Assembly: GCA_021734045.1 (NCBI GenBank)
Contig: JAIPJR010000075.1
Span: forward strand, 1-12,008
DNA: 12,008 nucleotides
Direction: 5' to 3'
From: Fidelibacterota bacterium
GTDB taxonomy: Bacteria; Fidelibacterota; UBA8477
The notes under the pieces were generated by a model. It saw nothing but the letters and a program-made list of their open reading frames with translations, had not been told where the DNA came from and ran no database searches. Position 1 is the stretch's first letter. Each line of letters opens with the position of its first letter. Made by a program: the position numbers and the translations under genes. Shown here in pieces: positions 340-12,008 of the stretch.

Positions 340-1755
340 TTACGCTTCCCGCGCCGCCTCCCGGATTGACATACGGTAGGCTTCTGAACCGGTTCGCAGG
401 GTACGCTCCTGTGTCTCAAAGTTCACCGCGTACAGACCAAATTTCATGGCATACCCTTCCGCCCACTCGAAATTATCCATGAGACTCCAGTAAAAATACC
501 CGCGCACATCCACACCCTCTTCAATCGCCCGGGATACCGCATAGAGATAGGTGCGAATGAAAAGAAACCGGCGATCATCGCGTTTATCAGCAATACCGTT
601 TTCCGTGATGATAATGGGTAACCCCAGACCATTCAGTTCATGAAGGGCCCGGTACATACCTTCCGGGTACATGGCATAGCCCATGTCCGTGGCCACATCA
701 TCCTTGTGGAGTTGAAATACAAACCCGCGTCTGATACTGAATTTCACATTGAAATGCGAGTAGTAGTTCAATCCGATGAAGTCGTTGGACCGGGCAGCAT
801 GTCCATTGTAATGGCGCACCAGGTTGAGTCCGGGTAGTGAAAATCTAAACCGTCCGGTTTTCAAAAATTGAAACACGGCAGTATTGAATGCTTTATGCAG
901 GGTGCGCGCCACAATCCAGTCGAGCAGGAAATTCCGGTGAATCGGGTCAAACTGGGTAAGATTTTTCACCAGCCCGATTTTCGCCTCTTTTCCTCCGGGT
1001 CGTTTTTTTAATGCCGTGTAGACCTGAACATGGGCTTCCAGCAGATTGCGCAGCACGACACCAGTTTTACGAATGTTGCGTTTCCCGGGTGGAAATTCTC
1101 CCCGGAAGTAGCCCATGGTGGCATATACCGAAGGTTCATTGATGGTACACCAGTAGGTGACCTGATCCTGAAGCTCGTCGAAAACCTTTTCCGCGAAACG
1201 GACAAAATAATGAATGTTTTTCTTCTTTTCGAAGGCGCCCAATTTTTCAAACCAGAGGGGATTCGTGAAATGGTGCAGCGTCACCATGGGCTCAATGCCC
1301 TGCTGGCGCAATTCCCGGATGAGCGTTTTGTAGTGCGTTAATGCCGCTTGGTCGAACTGATTTTCCATCGGTTCGATTTTGCTCCATTCAATGGAGAAGC
1401 GGTAGGCATTACACCCCAACTCTACCACACAGGCAATATCTTTTTGGTAGCGCGTCCAGTGTTCACAGGCATTCCCTGATATTTCGCCTGTTTTAATCCG
1501 TGGTGCTCCCCTGGAATTTTTAGCGTGCTCCCACGCCCACCAGTTATTGTTGGTGCAATCACCCTCCACCTGATGGGCAGAGGTGGCTACGCCCCAGAGG
1601 AAATTTTCAGGAAATTTAACTTCCGTGGTATCGGTCCATTCCCAGTCCCATTGCTCTTCCGGATAGCGCCGATTGAGCCAGATGACGAACAAGCCCGGAA
1701 TGACCACCACGATCCATAACACGATGAAAAACAAAATCCAGTCGAGCAAAGCCAT
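340..1755 (-). CDS. GH1 beta-glycosidase (beta-glucosidase/galactosidase type), membrane-anchored
   Basis: A 471-aa glycoside hydrolase family 1 retaining enzyme that removes terminal beta-linked glucose or a related sugar. Visible hallmarks: the N-terminal signature FLWGVATSAHQVEG near residues 52-65; TLHHFTNP near 159-166; the acid/base glutamate E207 in TINEPS; the nucleophile E385 in ITENG; and the sugar-binding segment WSLMDNFEWAEGY near 423-435. All catalytic positions are intact and the length is normal. Residues 5-26 form a hydrophobic helix with no cleavage site or lipobox, followed by NRR, so a membrane anchor with the catalytic domain on the cytoplasmic side is most likely (positive-inside rule; inference). 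I chose the ATG at 1755 because the frame's longer start at 1839 lies inside the GH36 gene and adds 28 residues unlike the family. The 1755 start sits five bases after the GH36 stop with AGAGGGA just upstream. It is the last gene of the four-gene operon. Exact sugar specificity cannot be read. Confidence 0.93.
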   Translation of the reverse strand: MALLDWILFFIVLWIVVVIPGLFVIWLNRRYPEEQWDWEWTDTTEVKFPENFLWGVATSAHQVEGDCTNNNWWAWEHAKNSRGAPRIKTGEISGNACEHWTRYQKDIACVVELGCNAYRFSIEWSKIEPMENQFDQAALTHYKTLIRELRQQGIEPMVTLHHFTNPLWFEKLGAFEKKKNIHYFVRFAEKVFDELQDQVTYWCTINEPSVYATMGYFRGEFPPGKRNIRKTGVVLRNLLEAHVQVYTALKKRPGGKEAKIGLVKNLTQFDPIHRNFLLDWIVARTLHKAFNTAVFQFLKTGRFRFSLPGLNLVRHYNGHAARSNDFIGLNYYSHFNVKFSIRRGFVFQLHKDDVATDMGYAMYPEGMYRALHELNGLGLPIIITENGIADKRDDRRFLFIRTYLYAVSRAIEEGVDVRGYFYWSLMDNFEWAEGYAMKFGLYAVNFETQERTLRTGSEAYRMSIREAAREA

Positions 1756-1760
1756 TCCCT

Positions 1761-3998
1761 CTAAACTTTTTCTTTCACGTCTAACGTCACCGTCCAGGGT
1801 GCTTTCGCTTCCACGGTGAGAACATAACCACGCGGCCATTTTTCAATGTGCAGTACTTCACGCGGTAGTCGTTCTTCCTCCAGCAGGAGGTTCGGTGGAA
1901 ATTCCAAACATATTTTCCCATCAAATGCTGCTAATCGCTCACCGCGCAAAATAAGCCTTCCTTGGCGAGGATGGAAGTCACTTCTCAGCCGTCCTTCCAA
2001 AAGCCCCGTCAAGTGAAATGTGGTTCCTACAATTCGTGGCGCTGACCCAATGGCATCCAGGGGATGGATAAGGACCCGTACACCATGCGGTGGAATGGTG
2101 ATATCATGATTGGTGGAAATCATTTCCCCACGCCAAAAGTCAAATACATATCCTGATTCCCGGTCAAGCGGATTGTGAAACTCAATATGTTGCCTGCGTT
2201 TGGTCCAATTAAAACGGGCTTCCAACTTGTGTGTGTGTGTGAGGAGCAACAACTGTTCCGCAAACGCCTCATCCTCCGGAAAGATTGGTGTTGCCGTCAA
2301 TTCTGACGGCGGCAAAACCGCATCAAGCAACCTGAGACGCTGTGGAGATAAGCGGTGCAAGGCATCACCCAGAAATATGGCCCCGCCACCCAAACCGGCG
2401 ATTGTTAATTGAAGCTGAATTTCTGCCGGCGTGAGCGTACTGTGTTTTTCTCTCACGATAAGACAATCGGGATCGTTCAACCACCAACGTCCATTCATTG
2501 CCATGCGGGTTAGATTGTTACGCAGGTTGTCTTTCATCGAGGGAATATCACAGCCCCGTCCCAACACTCGAAATAACTTGGGTTCCCACACCTCTTTGGT
2601 ATCGGCTGAAATGCGCATACTATCCACATGCCCGATGGAAGCGCCCAACGGAGCGCCACATCCCAAGATGTAGCTCTCTTCGCCCACCGCCCTGCGAATG
2701 GTGGCCATGGCATCCCGGTAGGCTTCCAGCGGGGACTGTTGCGGATCAAACCGGTGCCCTTTCCGCAGGCCGGCAAAGAGAAAATCCAATTTAAAGAAGA
2801 CGAATCCCACCGCCCGAAAAGCGACAAACAAATTATAGAGCCAGGCCAGCGCCTCCGGGTGGGTCAAATCCAGAGCCCGGGTACGCCCGCCCCAGTTGGG
2901 ATTATATCCGCAATCCACAAATTTCCCGCGCTCATTCCGGAGAAACCATCCCGGGTGGTCTCTGAACAATTCTGACCGGGTCGTGGCCATAAATGGCGCC
3001 AGCCAAATCCCGGGTTTGAGCCCTTTGTCCCCAATCCCCTGTGCCAATTCGGCCATGGTAGGCGGAAATCCTTTGGCCGGCTGCAACCAGTCACCTACCG
3101 CCTGTTGGTACCCATCATCAATCTGAAAACAGGTTGCGCCCAGTTCAGGAAATTGGCTGATCCGCTCGGCATTCAAACTGAGCTCCGCCGGGGAAATTTT
3201 AGTATAGTATTCGTACCAGGAACTCCAACCCACCATCGCCTTTTCCGGAATACGAGCCTCCATTGCATTACCCACTTCGTCCAGGTAGGTGTGCAAAATT
3301 TCTGGCCAGTCATGTTGGGTCAGATACAAGGGGTCGGTACGCAGGCTCTCGCCGGGCAGCAGTTCCTTGCCGCCATAGTCCAGTGAACAGATGAACTGAT
3401 CCCGCTGACTCGGCCGCCAAAAAATTTCACCCAGACCGGTCTTCTGTGTTAAAAACCCGAACAACCCGGATTCCAGGGCCGAATTCTCCTTTAACAGGAT
3501 GAACTGGGCTGACAGCAATCCGTCCCGGCGTTTCCAAAACCGACTGTCGGTGTAATGATTCATCTCTCCGAAGGATTTCAGCAATGGATATTTCATGGTA
3601 TCGGTTGCTTTTCTGAACCGGGTGGGCGACCAGGATTGGTAACCGTTCTGAAAGATGGAGAGTTGATCCGGCTTCGCCATTAAAACCGGATCTACCGAAA
3701 TCCGGGCAGGTTCAATGGCATACAGGGTGATGGGCAGGTCGCTGAGATTTTTCACCTGTAATGACAAAAGCAATACATGTTGCCGGGCTTCCCAGTGGAC
3801 GGTAACCTCAAAATCCTGCACATACCAGTACCAGCTGCGGGCTTCCTCCGGTGCATAACCCGGCTCGTCCGGCATCCAGGTGAAATGCCGTCCGCTGATT
3901 TCCAACTCAATAGCCGGATAGACAAATGTGGGGAAGTTAAACAGTGCCTCAATGGTGAAGCCGTAACGACCTTTCTGTTTCTGAGGACGGACTAACAT
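1761..3998 (-). CDS. GH36 alpha-galactosidase (melibiase family)
   Basis: A 745-aa retaining alpha-galactosidase of family GH36, releasing terminal alpha-galactose from melibiose, raffinose or galactosyl-polyol type substrates. An N-terminal beta-sandwich (about 1-245) contains the family-typical FQNGYQSWSP (116-125). The TIM barrel follows with WSSWYEYY (258-265), FQIDDGYQ (291-298), KPGIWLAPF (328-336), the nucleophile D405 in FFKLDF, and the acid/base D466 in RISADT, then a C-terminal beta domain. No signal peptide is seen, so it should be cytoplasmic. The length matches the bacterial 700-750 aa group. The start is the only one possible, because the permease stop is in the same frame 24 nt upstream; GGAG lies 13 nt before the ATG, a rather long spacing. 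It lies between the MFS and GH1 genes in the operon. A related activity such as alpha-N-acetylgalactosaminidase cannot be excluded from sequence alone. Confidence 0.93.
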   Translation of the reverse strand: MLVRPQKQKGRYGFTIEALFNFPTFVYPAIELEISGRHFTWMPDEPGYAPEEARSWYWYVQDFEVTVHWEARQHVLLLSLQVKNLSDLPITLYAIEPARISVDPVLMAKPDQLSIFQNGYQSWSPTRFRKATDTMKYPLLKSFGEMNHYTDSRFWKRRDGLLSAQFILLKENSALESGLFGFLTQKTGLGEIFWRPSQRDQFICSLDYGGKELLPGESLRTDPLYLTQHDWPEILHTYLDEVGNAMEARIPEKAMVGWSSWYEYYTKISPAELSLNAERISQFPELGATCFQIDDGYQQAVGDWLQPAKGFPPTMAELAQGIGDKGLKPGIWLAPFMATTRSELFRDHPGWFLRNERGKFVDCGYNPNWGGRTRALDLTHPEALAWLYNLFVAFRAVGFVFFKLDFLFAGLRKGHRFDPQQSPLEAYRDAMATIRRAVGEESYILGCGAPLGASIGHVDSMRISADTKEVWEPKLFRVLGRGCDIPSMKDNLRNNLTRMAMNGRWWLNDPDCLIVREKHSTLTPAEIQLQLTIAGLGGGAIFLGDALHRLSPQRLRLLDAVLPPSELTATPIFPEDEAFAEQLLLLTHTHKLEARFNWTKRRQHIEFHNPLDRESGYVFDFWRGEMISTNHDITIPPHGVRVLIHPLDAIGSAPRIVGTTFHLTGLLEGRLRSDFHPRQGRLILRGERLAAFDGKICLEFPPNLLLEEERLPREVLHIEKWPRGYVLTVEAKAPWTVTLDVKEKV
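2228..2241. repeat. (TG)7 dinucleotide tract inside the GH36 gene
   Basis: Seven TG units on the plus strand encode the LTHTHK segment of the GH36 protein (around residues 587-591). The frame is intact. The tract is short, and I see no sign that it is a contingency locus. Confidence 0.6.
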
Positions 3999-4022
3999 GA
4001 ATTGAGTAGCACTCCGAAACGC

Positions 4023-5369
4023 TCAAATAGGCCGTTTTGATTGCAGGCTGGCAGCGCGTTCCATAACCACGGAATTCAACCGCCTCTCATCCCGGGGAAA
4101 GATCCAAATCAGCCACAGGAGAGTCACACCACAGAACAACCAAAACAGATTGGCCACATTAAATGCCCAGGTGCGTCCCAGGGAGACAATGAGAATGCTG
4201 ATAATCACAGGCCCAAACCCCTTGCCCAGGTCGTCGGTGAGGTTGAACAGGGAAAAAATGGAACCCCGGGTTTCTGGCAGATTCACATTTAACAACATGG
4301 CTTTCACATTGGGGCCGGTGATGCTGATGGTAAATCCGGTGAACAGCCCGGAAACCAGCGGCAGCATCAGGTTGGGATTGGCGACGCCGCTTTGATCCGG
4401 AATATTGATAAGGATGGCCGTTGGAATAATGCCTAATAATGTGGTAATACCACACAGGGCCGGCAGATATTTGGGGTTGAGATTGTAGAGTTTATGCCCC
4501 ATTAATCCCCCCAGAAAACCACCAAAAATCGCCGCTCCACCAATGATGGTGACGATGAGCGTCGCCGTCTCGATGGTGTACCCCTTATCCTGCGACAGAT
4601 AGTCATTGAGAAAGATGAAAAAGACGCCCCAGGGAACCGTGCCCGGAATCCCCTGCAGAAATATCAGCAGGTTTGTTTTAATCCGGAAAAGTTGCTTGTA
4701 TTCCGACCAGTTAATACGCGCGGTATAGATTTGTCCTGACTGCAGCAGGTCTTTCAACCCCTCCTCAGCCTGACCGCGCGACGGCTCCTGCATGGTAAAC
4801 CAGAAAACCAGTGCCAGTAGAAAATTGGGCAGAGCCACCAGGATGAATGGCAATCGCCAGCCATATTCCGGTCCAATGAAGCCTGCCAGTAATTGTCCCA
4901 CGGCAATTCCCAATCCCATCGCCAAAGCCATGTAGGCGGAAGCGGCCGTTCGCAATTTGGGACTGAAATAATCACCCAGCAGCGAATAAACCAGGGGCAG
5001 CGCACCGCCGATACCAATACCGGTTAGCGCCCGCAGCCAGAACAATTGGGAATAGGTCTGGGCAAATCCGGTGAGCAGGCAGGGAATTTCTCCCACCAGA
5101 ATAACCGCAATAAACAGCGCTTTTCGCGAGATTCGGTCCGTGAGATATCCGATGCCCAATGTCACCAGTCCACCAAAAACCCAAAAAACGAACGAGATAT
5201 TCCCACCCAGCATCACATCCCGCTCCACGGCATCAAAACCAAAATCATCGGCGATCTGGGTGAGGTTGGGTGCCATGAGATTTTGATCGGCAAACAAAAA
5301 CAGCGTGATAATGGCCAACAGTGCCACCGCAAAGCGTTCACGCCCCGGAGAATTGGAATGACCTGCCAT
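4023..5369 (-). CDS. MFS permease, probable glycoside importer
   Basis: A 448-aa major facilitator superfamily protein with about twelve hydrophobic segments. Visible features: a charged D28 in helix 1 (FADQN); the loop 2-3 motif A GYLTDRISRK (74-83); a helix-4 WLRALTGIGIGG segment with R113; a cytoplasmic central loop about 196-228; and NLPETRGSIFSLFNLTDDLGKGFGP (363-387) before the last helices. The motif pattern resembles the Spinster-like/organic-anion branch of MFS more than classical sugar symporters, so the substrate is not readable. Its place between GH13 and GH36 genes, with ten bases to the former and 24 to the latter, makes oligosaccharide or glycoside uptake the best inference. 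The start has a good Shine-Dalgarno (AGGGG, about seven bases from the ATG). Proton coupling is likely from family knowledge only. No periplasmic binding protein or TonB receptor is present in the window. Confidence 0.88.
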   Translation of the reverse strand: MAGHSNSPGRERFAVALLAIITLFLFADQNLMAPNLTQIADDFGFDAVERDVMLGGNISFVFWVFGGLVTLGIGYLTDRISRKALFIAVILVGEIPCLLTGFAQTYSQLFWLRALTGIGIGGALPLVYSLLGDYFSPKLRTAASAYMALAMGLGIAVGQLLAGFIGPEYGWRLPFILVALPNFLLALVFWFTMQEPSRGQAEEGLKDLLQSGQIYTARINWSEYKQLFRIKTNLLIFLQGIPGTVPWGVFFIFLNDYLSQDKGYTIETATLIVTIIGGAAIFGGFLGGLMGHKLYNLNPKYLPALCGITTLLGIIPTAILINIPDQSGVANPNLMLPLVSGLFTGFTISITGPNVKAMLLNVNLPETRGSIFSLFNLTDDLGKGFGPVIISILIVSLGRTWAFNVANLFWLFCGVTLLWLIWIFPRDERRLNSVVMERAASLQSKRPI

Positions 5370-5379
5370 GGGCTATCCC

Positions 5380-7020
5380 CTATGTTGATTTACGACAAAT
5401 AAGTGCTTCGTCAGGTTCCAGGCTGACACTACCCTGGGGGAAGGTGTGCCCCGCAGGGTGATGTGTAGCCAGAACGACTTCCAGTGTTTCGCTGAAGTTA
5501 AATGAAAATGTTGTCTTGCGCTGCGAAAAGTTGAGGGCAATCCAAAGCGTATCCTCACCCAATGAGCGGCGATAAACGAGGAGATGATCCGGCGTATCAT
5601 CCAATAGGTGCAGGGAACCGGATAGCAGGGCAGGTGTCTGTTTGCGCAGGGAGATGAGTGCCCGGTAAAATTGAAAGAGTGACTGCTCATCTTGCCGTTC
5701 TGACACCACATTCACCGTCTTTTTGTCTTTGTTCGTCGGCAGCCAGGAATGAGTTGTGGAAAATCCCGCATTTTCAGCGTCAGTCCACTGCATGGGCGTG
5801 CGGCAGCCATCCCGCCCCCGAAAGAAGGGCCAGAATTTTTTCCCGGGCGGGTCCTGGATCTGGGCGCGTGACAGACGGGCTTCCCGCATGCCGATTTCTT
5901 CACCATAGTACAAAAACGGTGTCCCTTTAAGCGTTAACAGCAGGGTTGCAGCCACCCTGGCACGCAGGTGACCAACGCCATTCCGGGCGTAGCGTGTAAA
6001 ATGACGGATGACGTCATGATTGCTCAGGACCCATGTGGGCCAGGCACCCTCAGGCGCATATTGTTTCCAATGCAGAATAGATTGCCGGAAGTCCCTCGCC
6101 CGCCAGCGCGAATTAAGGAATTCAAAATTAAACACTAAATTCAGACCATCCTGATTTTGACCATAATAGGAGTAGGCTTGTTGGAAATTATCAATGGTGC
6201 TGGTCTCACCCACCAGCATCCTGTCGCCGGGATAACTGTCCACGATTTCCCGCATTTTCCCGAGTGCGCCATACATTTCCGGTTGATCCTGGTCGTAAAT
6301 ATGATGCTGACCCTCGTAGGCATAAAACAGGCCACGTAAACTACGGCGACGGGGATTGGAGCGAAGCGTAGCATCTTTGAAATAAAAATTATAAACATCC
6401 AATCGAAAGCCATCTACACCCATATCCAGCCAGTAACGCATTATCGCCCAGACGGCCTCCTGAACCTCTGGATTCCGCCAGTTCAAATCCGGCTGTTCTC
6501 TCAGAAATAGATGGAGATAGTATTGCCCGGAGTCTTCATCCCACTGCCAGGCGGGTCCGCCGAACATGCTCCGCCAGTTATTGGGGGGGTCATCTCCCTT
6601 ACCGTCGCGCCAGATGTACCAGTCGCGTTTGGGATTGTCCCGGGAGCTGCGGGATTCCTGGAACCACGGGTGATCCCACGAGGTGTGGTTCACTACCAGA
6701 TCCATCACTATCTTAATATCCCGGGCGTGAGCCTCTTCCAGTAGCGTTTTGAAGGTAGCCAGGTCACCAAACAGGGGATCAATGTCCCGGTAGTCTTTAA
6801 TGTCGTAGCCAAAATCGTGTTGCGGAGAGGGATAGATGGGGCTGAGCCACAGGGCATCCACGCCCAGCGAATCGGGCTTACCCTTTAGGTAGTCCAGTTT
6901 TTTGATAATGCCTGCCAGATCACCAATGCCGTCGCCATTGGCATCCATAAAACTGCGGGGATAGATCTGGTAAAAGACGGCGCGCTGCCACCAGGGCTGG
7001 GTATTTTTTTTTGCTGTCAT
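5380..7020 (-). CDS. GH13 alpha-glucosidase (oligo-1,6-glucosidase-like)
   Basis: A 546-aa GH13 retaining alpha-glucosidase acting on short alpha-glucosides. In order: WWQRAVFYQIYPRSF (10-24), the calcium-site-like DANGDGIGD (26-34), region I DLVVNHTS (107-114), QPDLNW (176-181), region II GFRLDVYNF with nucleophile D208, region III LVGETST with acid/base E272, and region IV VLSNHD with D336. The segment DVYNFYFKDATLRSNP is typical of the HaG-like bacterial alpha-glucosidases (GH13_23/30 area). V209 directly after the nucleophile is the residue type that, in yeast isomaltase and Bacillus oligo-1,6-glucosidase, favours alpha-1,6 bonds, whereas threonine favours alpha-1,4; alpha-1,6 preference here is inference. 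No signal peptide, so cytoplasmic. First gene of the operon. GAGGTGA lies 12 nt before the ATG. Codons 3-6 contain a run of nine A. Trehalose or sucrose hydrolysis is a less likely alternative. Confidence 0.93.
   Translation of the reverse strand: MTAKKNTQPWWQRAVFYQIYPRSFMDANGDGIGDLAGIIKKLDYLKGKPDSLGVDALWLSPIYPSPQHDFGYDIKDYRDIDPLFGDLATFKTLLEEAHARDIKIVMDLVVNHTSWDHPWFQESRSSRDNPKRDWYIWRDGKGDDPPNNWRSMFGGPAWQWDEDSGQYYLHLFLREQPDLNWRNPEVQEAVWAIMRYWLDMGVDGFRLDVYNFYFKDATLRSNPRRRSLRGLFYAYEGQHHIYDQDQPEMYGALGKMREIVDSYPGDRMLVGETSTIDNFQQAYSYYGQNQDGLNLVFNFEFLNSRWRARDFRQSILHWKQYAPEGAWPTWVLSNHDVIRHFTRYARNGVGHLRARVAATLLLTLKGTPFLYYGEEIGMREARLSRAQIQDPPGKKFWPFFRGRDGCRTPMQWTDAENAGFSTTHSWLPTNKDKKTVNVVSERQDEQSLFQFYRALISLRKQTPALLSGSLHLLDDTPDHLLVYRRSLGEDTLWIALNFSQRKTTFSFNFSETLEVVLATHHPAGHTFPQGSVSLEPDEALICRKST
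7004..7012 (-). repeat. A9 homopolymer just after the GH13 start codon
   Basis: Nine consecutive T on the plus strand read as nine A in the coding strand, covering codons 3-6 (MTAKKN). Runs of this length can allow polymerase or replication slippage, and at this position a slip would abolish the protein. The frame as given is intact. Confidence 0.5.
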
Positions 7021-7063
7021 ATTCTTAAACGGTCACCTCAAATTTTGTGCAATTAAGCCGGAA

Positions 7064-7092
7064 ATAATGAAATTGATGATTACAAATATCAA
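7064..7092 (-). promoter_or_regulatory. Candidate promoter of the glycosidase operon
   Basis: On the minus strand TTGATA (7092-7087; five of six matches to TTGACA) is separated by exactly 17 bases from CATTAT (7069-7064; four of six to TATAAT). It predicts a start near 7057 and a leader of about 37 nt before the GH13 ATG. TTGAT and ATCAA arms (7073-7077 and 7088-7092) form a short inverted repeat over the promoter that might be an operator. This is motif reading only. Confidence 0.35.
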
Positions 7093-7144
7093 ATAAGGCG
7101 TGAAAATAAGCGCGGAGATGACATCCACAAATGCCTAGTTCCGC

Positions 7145-7173
7145 TTGAAGAATAAGGCAAAATACATTGTAAA
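7145..7173 (+). promoter_or_regulatory. Candidate promoter of the response-regulator gene
   Basis: TTGAAG (7145-7150) and TGTAAA (7168-7173) are spaced by 17 bases and match the sigma70 consensus at four of six positions each. A start near 7180 would leave a leader of about 120 nt. In the remaining divergent gap (7021-7299) I see no gene, no riboswitch and no convincing terminator. Confidence 0.25.
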
Positions 7174-7299
7174 GTGAAGTCTAATTAATATCGTTATCTT
7201 TACTATCTTGGATTTTTTCCCCCGCACATGTATGTTCAGCCCGCAATATTGGAACGAACGGAAGGGTAGCAATCATTAACTCCAATAATCAGATCTTCC

Positions 7300-8685
7300 A
7301 TGCCAACTATTTTAATCGTTGATGATGACCCACATATTCGTGCCGAACTAACGGAATTTCTCCAGCAAGAGCAGTATGATACCACGGCCGTGGAAACAGC
7401 CGAAGAGGCGCTGGAAATTATCCGGTCGGAGCAGCCGGATTTGATTCTATCGGATATTTTTCTGCCCACCATGGGTGGGTTGGAATTGCTGGACCGGGTG
7501 AAAAAAGCCCACGCCGAAATTGATGTGATTATGATTACAGGCCATGGTGACGTGAGCACCGCTGTGAGTGCCATGAAGCTGGGTGCCCGGGATTACATCA
7601 AAAAGCCCTTCCACCTGGATGAAATTCTCCTGGTTATTACCCGCGCCTTACAGAATAAAGCTCGGGATGAGCAGCTGGCCTATCTGCAGCGGGAAGAGCG
7701 CAAGCTGTTGGGATTCGAGGAAATCATCGGGACCAGCCCGCCCATGCAGCAAGTTTTTGAGTTAATCCGTAAAATCTCCCGTTCATCACGCACCACCGTC
7801 CTGATTCATGGCGAAACCGGGACCGGAAAAGAATTGGTCGCCCGGGCGATCCATCAAAATAGTGAGCGGTCCGGAAAACCTTTTATAGAAATCAATTGCT
7901 CTGCCTTTCAGCCAACCTTGCTGGAAGCCGAGCTATTCGGATATGAAGCCGGCGCGTTTACCGGCGCCCGCCAGCGGAAAAAGGGGCTGCTGGAAATCGC
8001 CGACGGAGGCTCGTTCTTCCTGGATGAAATAGCTGACATGAGCCTGGAATTGCAGGCTAAGATGCTGAAAGTGCTGGAGGAGCAGACGTTTCGGCGGGTG
8101 GGCGGCACCAAAGAAATCAAAATTGATATCCGGGTAATCAGTGCCACCTCAAAAGATCTGGACGTGGCTACACTGAAGGGCAGCTTTCGACAGGATTTAT
8201 ACTACCGGCTCAATGTGGCGCGCATTGCCCTGCCTTCTTTGCGGGAGCGCGGGGATGATGTGATTATTCTGGCAAAACATTTTTTGGACCATTATAACCG
8301 GGAATTGAAACGCGATATCCATTCCATCTCACCAGATGTGGTAAACATTTTAAAACGCTATTCCTGGCCCGGGAATGTGCGGGAATTACGCAATATTATG
8401 GAGCGGGCGGTGTTGTTTGAACAATCCGACACACTCACCGCATCCAGTCTGCATACGATGCTGGACAATGATAATGACACATCCAAACCAGCGAAGGGAA
8501 TCACCGGAACGCATCCTTTGGAGCTGCAGATTCCGCCGGGAGGTGTCGCGCTGGTTGATGTGGAAAAGCGCCTGATTATGCAGGCACTGGAGCTGACGGG
8601 GGGTAATCAAACCAAAGCTGCAGAATTATTAAAACTGACGCGGGAAACGTTGAAATACAGAATGCGGAAATTCCAACTGCATTAA
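7300..8685 (+). CDS. NtrC-family sigma54-dependent response regulator
   Basis: A complete 461-aa regulator that activates sigma54 RNA polymerase when phosphorylated. The receiver domain (1-120) has the acidic pair D8/D9, phospho-acceptor D52, T80 and K102. The AAA+ domain (about 139-375) has Walker A GETGTGKE (171-178), the sigma54-contacting GAFTGA loop (218-223), Walker B FFLDE (239-243) and probable arginine fingers R297/R303 in FRQDLYYRLNV. A Fis-type helix-turn-helix closes the protein (about 420-459, GGNQTKAAELLKLTRETLKYR). All key residues are present, so it should be functional. The ATG at 7300 begins exactly at the receiver domain, though no clear Shine-Dalgarno precedes it. The next gene, 46 nt downstream, encodes an H-box protein that is the obvious phosphate donor. 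A likely target is the palindrome plus -24/-12 element before the lipoprotein gene at 9711. The physiological signal is unknown. Confidence 0.95.
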   Translation: MPTILIVDDDPHIRAELTEFLQQEQYDTTAVETAEEALEIIRSEQPDLILSDIFLPTMGGLELLDRVKKAHAEIDVIMITGHGDVSTAVSAMKLGARDYIKKPFHLDEILLVITRALQNKARDEQLAYLQREERKLLGFEEIIGTSPPMQQVFELIRKISRSSRTTVLIHGETGTGKELVARAIHQNSERSGKPFIEINCSAFQPTLLEAELFGYEAGAFTGARQRKKGLLEIADGGSFFLDEIADMSLELQAKMLKVLEEQTFRRVGGTKEIKIDIRVISATSKDLDVATLKGSFRQDLYYRLNVARIALPSLRERGDDVIILAKHFLDHYNRELKRDIHSISPDVVNILKRYSWPGNVRELRNIMERAVLFEQSDTLTASSLHTMLDNDNDTSKPAKGITGTHPLELQIPPGGVALVDVEKRLIMQALELTGGNQTKAAELLKLTRETLKYRMRKFQLH

Positions 8686-8731
8686 CTAATCACATTCTGT
8701 ATTAGACAACAGGACAAGGGGACTCGACTTC

Positions 8732-9418
8732 ATGGTCACACAAGACAGGATGAACCTGGGGAAATTCTTTCAGCTACTCTATCAATTTGGACAAAGTCAT
8801 CGGGATCAGGAGATCGCCCACGATCTCAATAACCATCTCTCCGTGCTTTCCATGCAGGTCAATATGCTCACCCGAGCACTGACCCGGGAGGATCGTGAGT
8901 TGGCAATGCGGAAATCTGACGAGATCCAGGAGACCGCCCAACGCATCCAACAATTCGCTGAATTTTTGAATCAGCCAGCCCAGCAGAGAATAACAATTTC
9001 CGAAACGAACCTGGGTCAATTGATTGAGGAGACACTCTCCTATTTAAACTATCTGCCGGAAATTGCTGATGTATCCGTACATTGGGAGCGACCTACAAAA
9101 CCGGTTGTTGTTTCCTGCTCTCCTGCTGGCGTCCAGCTAACGCTCCTTGGTTTTCTGTACAGTGTAAAGCAAATTGTTGATGCGCCACAGGTACATTTTG
9201 TCCTTGATACAAAAACGGGTACCTCCCACCGACTGACCTGCACGCTGCAACGTTCTCTCTCCACAAAAACACCGCTCAAGTTCCCCCGGCAGACAGAACA
9301 ATTGCCCGGTTCAATCCCGCTGCGCCACCTTCTGCACAATTTTGATGGGGAAAGTGCTGGTTTCCGAATCGAGCTGAACGAAGACGACACCCTGTCCGTG
9401 GCCTGTATTTTTCACTGA
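8732..9418 (+). CDS. Histidine-kinase-like phosphotransferase lacking an intact ATPase domain
   Basis: A 228-aa soluble protein. Residues 27-36, EIAHDLNNHL, are a good H-box of the NtrB-like HDLNN type with H30 as the candidate phospho-histidine, followed by a second helix (about 53-82) as expected for a dimerisation four-helix bundle. The C-terminal half has the layout of a kinase ATPase domain, but the place where N-box asparagines should be reads GVQLTLLGFLYSVKQIVDA, and there is no DxGxG or glycine-rich lid. It therefore cannot be expected to bind ATP like a kinase. Size and layout match ChpT and, more loosely, Spo0B, which relay phosphate between a kinase and response regulators (family knowledge). 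No membrane segment or sensor domain. AAGGGG lies ten bases before the ATG; M7 is an alternative start. It is probably co-transcribed with the sigma54 regulator. Alternatives: a phosphatase-only partner or a decayed kinase. Confidence 0.75.
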   Translation: MVTQDRMNLGKFFQLLYQFGQSHRDQEIAHDLNNHLSVLSMQVNMLTRALTREDRELAMRKSDEIQETAQRIQQFAEFLNQPAQQRITISETNLGQLIEETLSYLNYLPEIADVSVHWERPTKPVVVSCSPAGVQLTLLGFLYSVKQIVDAPQVHFVLDTKTGTSHRLTCTLQRSLSTKTPLKFPRQTEQLPGSIPLRHLLHNFDGESAGFRIELNEDDTLSVACIFH

Positions 9419-9453
9419 CTTCTCCGTTTAAATAATACGGCAAAGGACACAGT

Positions 9454-9483
9454 TGGTTGATATAAACCGGTTTATATCAACCA
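9454..9483. promoter_or_regulatory. Perfect 30-bp palindrome, candidate enhancer site
   Basis: Left half TGGTTGATATAAACC (9454-9468) is followed with no spacer by its exact reverse complement (9469-9483). The centre is about 206 bp upstream of the start predicted from the -24/-12 element at 9649, a usual distance for NtrC-type activator sites. In RNA it would make a 13-bp stem with a CCGG loop, but no U-run follows, so a plain intrinsic terminator for the gene ending at 9418 is less likely. Confidence 0.6.
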
Positions 9484-9648
9484 CTCATGATTTATCTTCA
9501 CCCACGCTCGCCCACCGAACCAGCAATAAGAATTCATAACGATAATAATTCAGCTGTCTTTTAAAATATTGTAATTTATTCTTTTACTGTTGAAATTGAA
9601 AACCGGCCAGCAAGGGATTAAGCCGATTAATTCCAGGGTGAATTGGTT

Positions 9649-9664
9649 TGGCATGTCCTTTGGA
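9649..9664 (+). promoter_or_regulatory. Candidate sigma54 (-24/-12) promoter of the lipoprotein gene
   Basis: TGGCATG-N4-TTGGA fits the sigma54 consensus TGGCACG-N4-TTGCW with correct spacing and two mismatches (C to T near -24, C to G at -12). It predicts a start near 9675, 36 nt before the ATG at 9711. A sigma54 activator gene and a palindromic site lie upstream, which supports the reading. The AT-rich stretch 9520-9600 between the two sites could give the needed bend. Confidence 0.5.
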
Positions 9665-9710
9665 TTATGACCCTTGCTAACATCTGGCAAAAAAACTGAG
9701 GAGAGATGTC

Positions 9711-10391
9711 ATGAAACAGACTCGTAACAAATGGTATGCAGGAATTCTGCTCGCAGGAGCTATTGGATTTGTCCTGAGCGGCTGTAGCGAAAACGGACTG
9801 ACAGGTCCGGACAATATGGTAACCGGTGCAGCCAAGGGATTAACGACAGAAGAAATCAATGTGGTGAACTGGAAACCGGAAGTTCAGACGGCGATTAACG
9901 CCATTGAAGTTGAGGGAATCCAGGCACCATCAAATCTCACAAAATCAACAGACGACGGTGATGACTCCGGTGAGTGGGCCGCATTGGCTTGGGGTTACAT
10001 CTGGAAATTCAACGGTGGTACAGTAGGTGGCGATGCGACCTTTGGAAACAAGGTTGACGTACCTGCACATGCTTATCCACAACTTGCGCGACTCTTCGTG
10101 GTGGCTGTTACCAATGCCAATCCGGAGAACAATCAAGGCGCTGCAGTGGATTTTCTGCCCAGCCAACAGTTCCTACGACCGGTAACCGTCACCCTTTCCT
10201 GGGATTACTTAGATTTCAATGGGGATCCTAACGATTTGGTCCTCTACTGGCAAAATGAAGAGACCGGACTGTGGATCGAGGTTCCAGAAAGCGTCATCGA
10301 CCCCATCGCCCGTACGATTTCCGGACAGGTAAATCATTTCACCAAGTTCTTGTGGGGCTGGGAGGACGATTTTGACGACGATGGCAATTAA
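9711..10391 (+). CDS. Lipoprotein with C-terminal ZU5-like beta domain
   Basis: A 226-aa exported protein of unknown function. Residues 1-24 are a signal peptide (MKQTRNKW, then a hydrophobic stretch) ending in the lipobox LSGC with C25 as the lipidated residue. Ser and Glu follow, so there is no Asp retention signal at +2 and outer-membrane placement is likely. A low-complexity linker (about 75-90, TDDGDDSGEW) leads into a beta-rich region (about 97-213). There, a VDVPAHAYPQ strand, FLPSQQFLRPVTVTLSW, LVLYWQNEETGLWIEVPES and a closing ISGQVNHFTKF resemble the ZU5-type domains seen in some bacterial surface proteins (pattern recognition, not a search). The tail WEDDFDDDGN is strongly acidic. 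GAGGAGA six bases before the ATG is a strong Shine-Dalgarno. A candidate sigma54 promoter lies at 9649-9664, so expression may be controlled by the regulator at 7300. The TPR gene follows after 83 nt with no obvious terminator between. Confidence 0.8.
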   Translation: MKQTRNKWYAGILLAGAIGFVLSGCSENGLTGPDNMVTGAAKGLTTEEINVVNWKPEVQTAINAIEVEGIQAPSNLTKSTDDGDDSGEWAALAWGYIWKFNGGTVGGDATFGNKVDVPAHAYPQLARLFVVAVTNANPENNQGAAVDFLPSQQFLRPVTVTLSWDYLDFNGDPNDLVLYWQNEETGLWIEVPESVIDPIARTISGQVNHFTKFLWGWEDDFDDDGN

Positions 10392-10431: not shown

Positions 10432-10482
10432 ATGAGAAACCTAAAACGACTAAGCATTAGGATGGAAATCGTCCATGAGTAA
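10432..10482 (+). CDS. Possible 16-residue leader ORF overlapping the TPR gene start
   Basis: The ATG at 10432 has AAGGTGA directly upstream and encodes MRNLKRLSIRMEIVHE before a TAA at 10480-10482. It overlaps the TPR start codon as ATGAGTAA, the arrangement seen in translationally coupled pairs. The TPR ATG itself has only AGGA 13 bases upstream, so ribosomes ending the leader could restart there. Whether the peptide itself matters is unknown. Confidence 0.35.
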   Translation: MRNLKRLSIRMEIVHE

Positions 10483-11713
10483 TACAAATCTACAAAAATT
10501 TCTCGAAGCGGTCTCGGATCTGGCTGGTGAGCGCTGTGGCCAGGCGTTCACAAACGAGATGACATCTCTCCTGGCGGAGCGAGACCGCTTATTGAAAAGC
10601 AGCTGGCAGGAGGTGGATGCATCGGTCATTTCCACGGAAGACCGTAAAAAGCTTCTAAAGGAAGTGGACTTCGACACCTTCACCTCCCGGGCTGCAAATT
10701 TTCTCGACAAAAAGGCATATCCGCTCTTTCTTTTCAATGTGGCTAACACCGGTATCCGATTTGGAGAGCTTACCAAAGCAAAACGATTGTTGACTGCCAT
10801 TGTAGCGAAATACACAGCTTCCTTGGACAAGCTAATCGTTGCGCGATGTCATAAGAATCTCGGTCAAATTGCATTCTATCAAAATGACTTGAAGTCAGCG
10901 GAGACTTCGCTAAAAACAAGTCTGCGTCTTTTCAAATCCATTAACTCTCACGATGGAATTGCATCCACACACAACGCTCTTGGTACCGTACTTATTGAGA
11001 TGGGCAAACCTGAAGCGGGTCAAAAAGAGTTTAATGAAGCGAAAGCAATCGCAGAGAAACACAAACTTGACCAAACCCTCTCCAGTGTTCTAATGAATCT
11101 GGGAAATGTGGCCAGTATTCTTGGTGAGTGGGATGAGGCCCTGGCAAATTATCAGTCCGCTTTGACCGGATTAAAGAATCAGGAAGCTCATCAACTGAAG
11201 GCGAAGCTTAATCTGAACCTTGCCTCCGTGTATCTGAAGCAGGGAAATTTCCCCAAAGCAGAATCGCTGGTCAAAGAAGGTAATCGGTTCTCTGAAAAAG
11301 GAAATTTACGCTACGAGCGGGCAGTTTCGTATTTGATTGAAGCTGAAATTGCCTGCCGTAAACGGATATACTCTACCGGAAGTGCCCTGGCTATTACGGC
11401 CTTCCACCTCTTCTCCGAGATGGGCGACAGACATGGCTTGGCAGAGGTGTACCGGGTTCTGGGAATGATAAACCGGGATTCAGAACACTTCGATCAGGCA
11501 CTTTCCTACTTTGAAAACAGCCGGCGGATTAACACCGAGCTGGGCAGCCATCTCAATCTGGGTGAAACCCTGTATGAAATGGGCCAGCTCCATCAAACCA
11601 CCGGTAATAAGAGGAAAGCAGGGAAAGCTTTCCGCGATGCCATTGCCAGCTATAAGCGGGTCAATGCAAAATCCAGACAGCTGGAAGCGGAAATTGCCCT
11701 GTCAAACCTCTAA
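10475..11713 (+). CDS. Cytoplasmic tetratricopeptide-repeat protein
   Basis: A 412-aa protein made almost wholly of TPR helical hairpins. About eight units can be placed near residues 83-116, 122-155, 163-196, 203-236, 243-276, 283-316, 323-356 and 363-396. The best are HKNLGQIAFYQNDLKSAETSL, HNALGTVLIEMGKPEAGQKEF, LMNLGNVASILGEWDEALANYQSAL and YRVLGMINRDSEHFDQALSYF. The first 75 residues are helical, charged and not TPR. There is no signal peptide, membrane segment, kinase, cyclase or HTH domain, so it is probably a protein-interaction or peptide-sensing scaffold; the partner is unknown. The start overlaps a small leader ORF (10432-10482). It follows the lipoprotein gene on the same strand and may share its transcript, and two GC-rich hairpins lie after the stop. 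TPR proteins of this architecture include Rap-like and anti-activator proteins, but nothing here proves such a role. Confidence 0.85.
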   Translation: MSNTNLQKFLEAVSDLAGERCGQAFTNEMTSLLAERDRLLKSSWQEVDASVISTEDRKKLLKEVDFDTFTSRAANFLDKKAYPLFLFNVANTGIRFGELTKAKRLLTAIVAKYTASLDKLIVARCHKNLGQIAFYQNDLKSAETSLKTSLRLFKSINSHDGIASTHNALGTVLIEMGKPEAGQKEFNEAKAIAEKHKLDQTLSSVLMNLGNVASILGEWDEALANYQSALTGLKNQEAHQLKAKLNLNLASVYLKQGNFPKAESLVKEGNRFSEKGNLRYERAVSYLIEAEIACRKRIYSTGSALAITAFHLFSEMGDRHGLAEVYRVLGMINRDSEHFDQALSYFENSRRINTELGSHLNLGETLYEMGQLHQTTGNKRKAGKAFRDAIASYKRVNAKSRQLEAEIALSNL

Positions 11714-11971: not shown

Positions 11972-12008
11972 TTTCTCGAAAAGCGAGACACTTAAAATCT
12001 GTAGAATT

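Follow-up and report, generated by a model that had tools for sequence, protein, structure and literature searches.

The described systems that most closely resemble the locus analyzed here are NtrBC, ZraSR and the EBP regulons of Desulfovibrio vulgaris (PMC4641369), in which a response regulator with a GAFTGA-bearing AAA+ domain and a Fis-type HTH is combined with a dyad UAS that lies over 100 bp upstream of a -24/-12 promoter, and in which the target adjoins the gene for the regulator. A second point of comparison is provided by relays such as CckA-ChpT-CtrA, Spo0F-Spo0B-Spo0A and that of PhyT (PMC3433190, PMC5898713), which are composed of a hybrid or separate kinase, a His-bearing protein derived from a histidine kinase (HK), and an output regulator. 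In particular, ChpT keeps the shape of a histidine kinase together with its His but cannot use ATP (PMC3433190), and PhyT, at first regarded as a phosphatase, later proved to act as a phosphotransferase (PMC5898713). The third comparison concerns domains of the ZU5 superfamily; PIDD is cut at HF/S directly after its ZU5 domains (PMC3210808), and self-processing has been proposed for the ZU5 domains of bacterial surface proteins (PMC3482391).

Here we analyze a 12,008-bp stretch of DNA (the window) that makes up a whole contig of a 2.54-Mb Neomarinimicrobiota genome. On the basis of comparisons with related genomes, we consider it highly likely that positions 9454–9483 constitute the UAS of the adjacent NtrC-type regulator and act together with a sigma54 promoter that serves a lipoprotein gene. 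A switch of this kind would be ordinary and well known, whereas the conserved gene module in which it lies is undescribed in the literature we found; our search of that literature returned neither a sigma54 circuit in Neomarinimicrobiota/Marinimicrobia nor a description of the module.

Results

A paired dyad and a -24/-12 element follow the gene for an NtrC-type regulator

The original prediction placed an NtrC-family activator upstream of the lipoprotein gene, and Pfam domains bear this out (Table 1). The protein has the features of an NtrC-family EBP, namely an N-terminal receiver (PF00072, E-value 5e-32), an AAA+ domain with the GAFTGA motif (PF00158, 6e-69) and a C-terminal Fis-type HTH (PF02954, 4e-15), and alignments of relatives revealed that both the GAFTGA motif and the HTH are conserved. 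Elsewhere, GAFTDA, GAFTNA or GAYTDA replaces GAFTGA in the sigma54-contact loop (loci L145, L146-L148, L153-L156, L158-L164 and L168-L170); of these, GAFTDA has been reported as one of the variants that maintain activity (PMC4641369).

Table 1 Features of the window considered in this study.
Feature	Position	Strand	Basis
NtrC-type response regulator, 461 aa; REC, sigma54 AAA+ (GAFTGA), Fis-type HTH	7300..8685	+	Pfam PF00072, PF00158, PF25601, PF02954
Histidine-kinase-like protein, 228 aa; DHp and Bergerat-like C-terminal fold lacking ATP-binding motifs	8732..9418	+	alignments, Pfam, model
Putative enhancer dyad 1, GGTTGATATAAACC	9455..9468	.	conservation across relatives
Putative enhancer dyad 2, GGTTTATATCAACC; abuts dyad 1	9469..9482	.	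conservation across relatives
-24/-12 element TGGCATG-TCCT-TTGGA (TGGCATGTCCTTTGGA)	9649..9664	+	motif scan and conservation
Lipoprotein gene, 226 aa; lipobox LSGC, ZU5/GAIN-like beta-sandwich, conserved C-terminal HFT	9711..10391	+	alignment, model, structure comparison
TPR protein, 412 aa; next gene after lipoprotein in nearly all loci	10475..11713	+	Pfam TPR; gene order in relatives
G+C-rich hairpin GGGGAACTCC..GGAGTTCCCC after TPR gene; similar hairpin in L040	11804..11827	+	sequence inspection

Beginning 35 bp past the stop codon of the HK-like gene, TGGTTGATATAAACCGGTTTATATCAACCA (9454–9483) equals its own reverse complement and is thus the perfect 30-bp palindrome that had been claimed. 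As had also been argued, such a palindrome is not expected by chance (with equal base use, the chance is approximately 1e-5 in 12 kb, rising to 0.002 over the whole genome). It is composed of two abutting 14-bp dyads of the form GGTT-N6-AACC, to which an outer T and an outer A are added. Even when up to 3 mismatches were tolerated, the search for further copies that had been proposed returned this single copy in the 2.54-Mb genome, and its half-sites, searched for with 3 mismatches, gave 111 hits versus 65 in a reversed control, which represents some excess. An Rfam search of the window gave no match.

Using the lipoprotein as the query against genome contigs, we recovered two loci from the same genus. 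We also compared two other genomes of the genus with that of the window. Identities in these relatives were 92% and 80% for the regulator, 92% and 67% for the lipoprotein, and 68% and 39% for the HK-like protein, and in the more distant of the two the intergenic region has largely diverged, such that conserved blocks stand out. One of these blocks, TGGTT-N6-AACCGGTT-N6-AACCA, lies in the same place in both genomes, just past the stop codon of the upstream gene; others are TTGGCAY-N4-TTTGG and the stretch from GCTAACATCTGGC to the start codon, which includes the Shine-Dalgarno sequence. The alignment of relatives suggested as a check therefore finds the palindrome site kept where the genes are kept. 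The original idea that the 30-bp palindrome is itself the unit did not hold, however. Its mirror symmetry has one unmatched pair in G002, the middle of each arm is lost in G001, and full symmetry is gone both in G001 and in another family; what is kept is the 14-bp dyad, in two to three copies with a spacing of 14 or ~18-22 bp.

The GG at 9650–9651 places -24 at 9651, -12 at 9663 and the predicted +1 at 9675, which is 36 nt from the lipoprotein ATG (9711) and ~206 bp from the centre of the palindrome; the TGGCATG-N4-TTGGA element and both of these distances are as first described. The significance of the element rests on its conservation, because a match as such is at chance level in 12 kb (6 matches were found in the window and 12 were expected). 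Indeed, the GG at -25/-24 characteristic of TGGCAC is found in TTGGCAT here and in TTGGCAY throughout the genus. The -12 part reads TTGG, not the consensus TTGC, and the element is conserved in place; TTGG recurs in the genus, in the sister family and in the main groups of the order, and elsewhere TTGT is often found and sometimes TTGC. Validated sigma54 promoters without TTGC have been listed (PMC12316311). The GAFTGA loop of the regulator varies in many families, and the -12 element of the target promoter varies too (TTGG/TTGT). The genome contains a complete rpoN, the presence of which had been named as a check; it encodes a 468-aa protein with AID, CBD and DBD.

Lying at least ~100 bp upstream of the promoter and conserved along with the regulator, the dyads have the features of a UAS. 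Taken with the comparisons below, this suggests that they very probably form a paired site through which the neighboring NtrC-type regulator, their probable binder, switches on the sigma54 promoter of the surface lipoprotein. Between the dyads and the promoter there is also an A/T-rich block, TATTGTAATTTATTCTTTTACTG (9565–9595), which is partly conserved in the genus and might serve as a bend or as an IHF/HU-like site.

Dyad and -24/-12 element recur at the same locus across the order and the phylum

The same gene order is found in a second family of the order, where two exact GGTTNATATNAACC sites with a degenerate one between them lie just past the stop codon of the HK-like gene, with TGGCAYG-AAAA-TTGG ~240-280 bp farther downstream. 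Across 23 genomes of the order (74 Mb) there are 19 exact GGTTNATATNAACC sites, 16 of which fall at the regulator-lipoprotein locus. Approximately 4 would be expected by chance; the 3 off-locus sites, one of them inside a long ORF, fit this number. With 16 of the 19 at one locus, the regulator seems to be devoted to a single target in each genome.

Of 245 genomes from the phylum, 44, belonging to 24 genera, encode a member of the lipoprotein family. As a held-out test, we scored 31 intergenic regions from phylum families that had not been used to define the motif and compared them with shuffles. A dyad with no more than 1 mismatch was present in 13 of the 31 (against a mean of 0.07 and a maximum of 1 in the shuffles), and in 14 of the 31 the sigma54 score was 10 or higher, out of a possible 11 (shuffle mean 1.06). 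At most loci the dyads lie within ~60 bp of the end of the upstream gene and usually ~130-240 bp before the -24 element, with copies 14 bp or ~18-22 bp apart. Outside the order, roughly one in three lipoprotein loci showed no clear GGTT dyad. Non-GGTT dyads occur at the same place in L167 (GGACTATATAGTCC) and L140 (GGGGCATGTGCCCC), in both cases with a recognition helix that is not R-E-T. More generally, where an operator differs from GGTT, the recognition helix of the regulator tends to differ from R-E-T (Fisher p 0.004, ignoring relatedness). This association, which is confounded by relatedness, is suggestive of a regulator that reads the dyad but is not proof of it.

In the sister family (L168:6950-7203, L169:5592-5862, L170:5706-5976, L047 and L044), the ~250 nt that separate the -24/-12 element from the lipoprotein ATG are well conserved. 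This stretch contains several invariant stem-like parts with little covariation, and a long leader or a small RNA is suggested.

The probable target genes and the probable kinase

The model of the lipoprotein (pLDDT 83) best matches the ZU5 domain of ankyrin (Z 11.3, rmsd 3.1 over 123 residues). We refer to the protein as ZU5-fold and not as a member of Pfam ZU5, because it gave no match to the Pfam ZU5 profile up to an E-value of 10; nor did it have any significant Pfam hit. Close to the C-terminus, [DN]-H-F-[TS] is present in 29 of 29 aligned homologues. The invariant H-F-[T/S], found in the window (9711–10391) and in L040 and L136-L170, resembles the self-cleavage sites of PIDD and Nup98, and it is possible, if speculative, that the protein is an autoproteolytic surface lipoprotein.

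At most loci where the contig reaches far enough, the order of genes is NtrC-type regulator, lipoprotein, TPR protein (~410 aa) and histidine kinase. The TPR gene is probably in the same transcript as the lipoprotein gene, and the hairpin that follows it is the probable end of that transcript. L040 has a similar hairpin after its TPR gene, so separate transcription of the kinase is possible in the genus. The downstream kinases contain PAS, HisKA and HATPase_c domains and often a receiver; that of the same-genus L040 (5399–6895) is a 498-aa PAS-HisKA-HATPase-REC hybrid. A three-Cys motif (for example, KCYEVLRGKSSPCEDCPL) is conserved in the PAS-domain kinases of L040 and L136-L170, and is possibly a redox or metal sensor.

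The contig of the window ends at 12008, 295 bp past the TPR stop codon and thus before or at the expected start of the kinase gene. In the same draft genome we found no orthologue of the downstream kinase: the best full-length match (34% identical) does not have the N-terminal PAS/Cys part and was rejected. Judged by the gene order in relatives, phosphate most likely comes from a PAS hybrid kinase whose gene follows that of the TPR protein. The circuit is not, as had been supposed, self-contained within the window, for its probable kinase would sit beyond the contig end. (Note that the lipoprotein-TPR-kinase part is present twice in tandem in L155, at 5125–9871 and 10070–13001, each copy having its own upstream dyad and -24/-12 element.) On the other side of the regulator, positions 340–7020 carry a divergent sugar-utilization cluster on the minus strand (GH13 alpha-amylase-type, MFS transporter, melibiase-like and GH1 genes); a GH13-type gene is also divergent beside the regulator in L040.

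The HK-like protein

The original prediction cast the product of 8732–9418 as the probable phosphate donor, that is, as a kinase. Comparison of ten homologues showed that His30, Asn33 and Asn34 (H-x-x-N-N) are invariant, and the model, of modest confidence (pLDDT 63), has the histidine-kinase fold over both domains. The protein thus has the anatomy of ChpT, Spo0B and PhyT, with a DHp domain carrying a conserved His followed by an ATPase-like domain in which the ATP motifs are missing; from the missing motifs we infer that ATP binding has been lost. A Pfam search gave no significant hit to the protein and no HATPase_c, and searches against the ChpT and Spo0B families returned no Pfam or PDB sequence hit, with weak hits to ordinary kinases. 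A contig search with the protein as the query gave no match. The gene adjoins the regulator in families f1, f2, f16 and f25 and is missing elsewhere, even though the rest of the module is kept. Its presence does not track cleanly with that of a receiver in the kinase; L147 and L155 have a receiver and no adjacent HK-like gene. By analogy, the protein is probably a phosphotransferase, at most ChpT/Spo0B-like, or a phosphatase, and any resemblance that we infer to ChpT concerns its working and not family membership.

Alternative explanations

Could the palindrome act as RNA, forming a terminator or a stabilizing hairpin that ends the regulator/HK-like transcript? Its position just past a stop codon is suitable, and the RNA of the window folds there at -14.7 kcal/mol (z -3.0). 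However, no U tract follows the palindrome, and the terminator scan found no terminator. Moreover, the 13-bp hairpin is lost in G001 and in the other family, where the 14-bp DNA dyads are kept, and in many relatives the ~18-22 bp between dyad copies is compatible with conservation of symmetric DNA and not of a long stem. We therefore regard the hairpin as very unlikely. That a perfect palindrome within an intergenic region might belong to a dispersed REP-like repeat family is hardly credible, given one copy in its own genome and the same syntenic place in relatives; copy number, synteny and the terminator scan together argue that it is neither repeat nor terminator, the two identities against which the original prediction had asked for a check. 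A different possibility is that the dyads bind some other factor, such as a repressor or a sigma70-type activator, and that the NtrC-type regulator acts elsewhere. In favor of this, expression of the TPR and kinase genes could be controlled in some other way. Nevertheless, the dyads accompany the regulator and the lipoprotein across families, nearly all exact copies in the order are at the locus, and the spacing to the conserved -24/-12 element is typical of enhancers, with UASs found at least 100 bp upstream of sigma54 promoters (PMC4641369); the only sigma70-like site of the region is at chance level. Binding of another factor is thus improbable, and we favor the dyads as the UAS of the NtrC-type regulator.

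As for phosphate, the HK-like neighbor might be an active kinase that phosphorylates the regulator, consistent with its histidine-kinase fold and with an invariant, potentially phospho-accepting His in the H-x-x-N-N box. Against this, no HATPase_c match was obtained, the N, G1 and G2 boxes are unrecognizable at their positions, and the acidic residue usual after the phospho-His is not kept (D, S, K or Q is found among homologues). In addition, many loci that keep the rest of the module do not have the gene and show a full kinase downstream. An active kinase is accordingly a poor prospect, and a phosphotransferase or phosphatase is preferred.

Discussion

What stands of the originally predicted enhancer-dependent lipoprotein circuit is an enhancer-like site, a sigma54 promoter and an adjacent regulator; the neighboring kinase, the self-containment and the 30-bp unit do not. 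The module conserved in relatives comprises, in order, the response regulator, in some families the ATP-less HK-like protein, the putative UAS, the sigma54 promoter, the ZU5-fold lipoprotein, the TPR protein and the kinase. We propose that the phosphorylated regulator would assemble on the UAS at 9454–9483, each 14-bp dyad being suited to one dimer of its Fis-type HTH, and would reach sigma54-RNA polymerase at 9649–9664 by DNA looping over ~170 bp, whereupon its AAA+ ATPase would open the promoter. The transcript, starting from ~9675, would encode the lipoprotein and probably the TPR protein too. The PAS hybrid kinase might feed phosphate to the regulator by way of the ATP-less HK-like protein, which would then work as ChpT and Spo0B do, the phosphate going from a His of the kinase to the Asp of its receiver, on to the His of the HK-like protein and finally to the Asp of the regulator; alternatively, the HK-like protein may be a phosphatase. 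Taken by itself, this relay step has in our view an even chance of being right.

A broader proposal is that of a dedicated sigma54 phosphorelay found throughout the phylum, in which a three-Cys PAS hybrid kinase would act through an ATP-less, HK-derived phosphotransferase on an NtrC-type activator whose sole target is the operon of a ZU5-fold lipoprotein that possibly cuts itself (HF/T). This we put forward tentatively, as a possibility that we think unlikely to hold in full. If it were true, the kinase would be in or behind the target operon, and the phylum-wide circuit could therefore feed back on itself.

For a signaling system kept in some two dozen genera of a poorly characterized phylum, known largely from metagenomes, the analysis supplies a candidate operator and promoter together with the complete gene module. 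One regulator paired with one target through defined dyads offers a test case for DNA recognition by NtrC-type proteins, and the module as a whole offers another, for whether an ATP-less relative of a kinase can serve a sigma54 activator. The lipoprotein, in turn, raises the testable question of self-cleavage in bacterial ZU5-fold surface proteins.

With the ZU5-superfamily domains of ankyrin, PIDD and GAIN and of bacterial surface proteins (PMC3482391), the lipoprotein shares a predicted fold, and its conserved H-F-T/S close to the C-terminus is, from sequence, like the HF/S cleavage site of PIDD (PMC3210808). Unlike these proteins, it is small, has no death or adhesion modules and lacks a significant Pfam hit. 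The HK-like protein shares with ChpT, Spo0B and PhyT, which are dimeric HK-derived proteins that have lost ATP binding, a conserved His and, as judged from its motifs, the loss of ATP binding. Unlike in those relays, the output would be an NtrC-type sigma54 activator, the presence of the HK-like gene varies across the phylum, and we saw no ChpT or Spo0B sequence membership. Finally, the arrangement of regulator, dyads and promoter is that of NtrBC, ZraSR and the D. vulgaris circuits, from which this locus differs in several ways. It has its own putative operator, GGTT-N6-AACC, and the regulator apparently serves a single target in each genome; the regulator gene is accompanied by one for an ATP-less HK-like protein; the target is a ZU5-fold lipoprotein plus a TPR protein; and the -12 element reads TTGG or TTGT.
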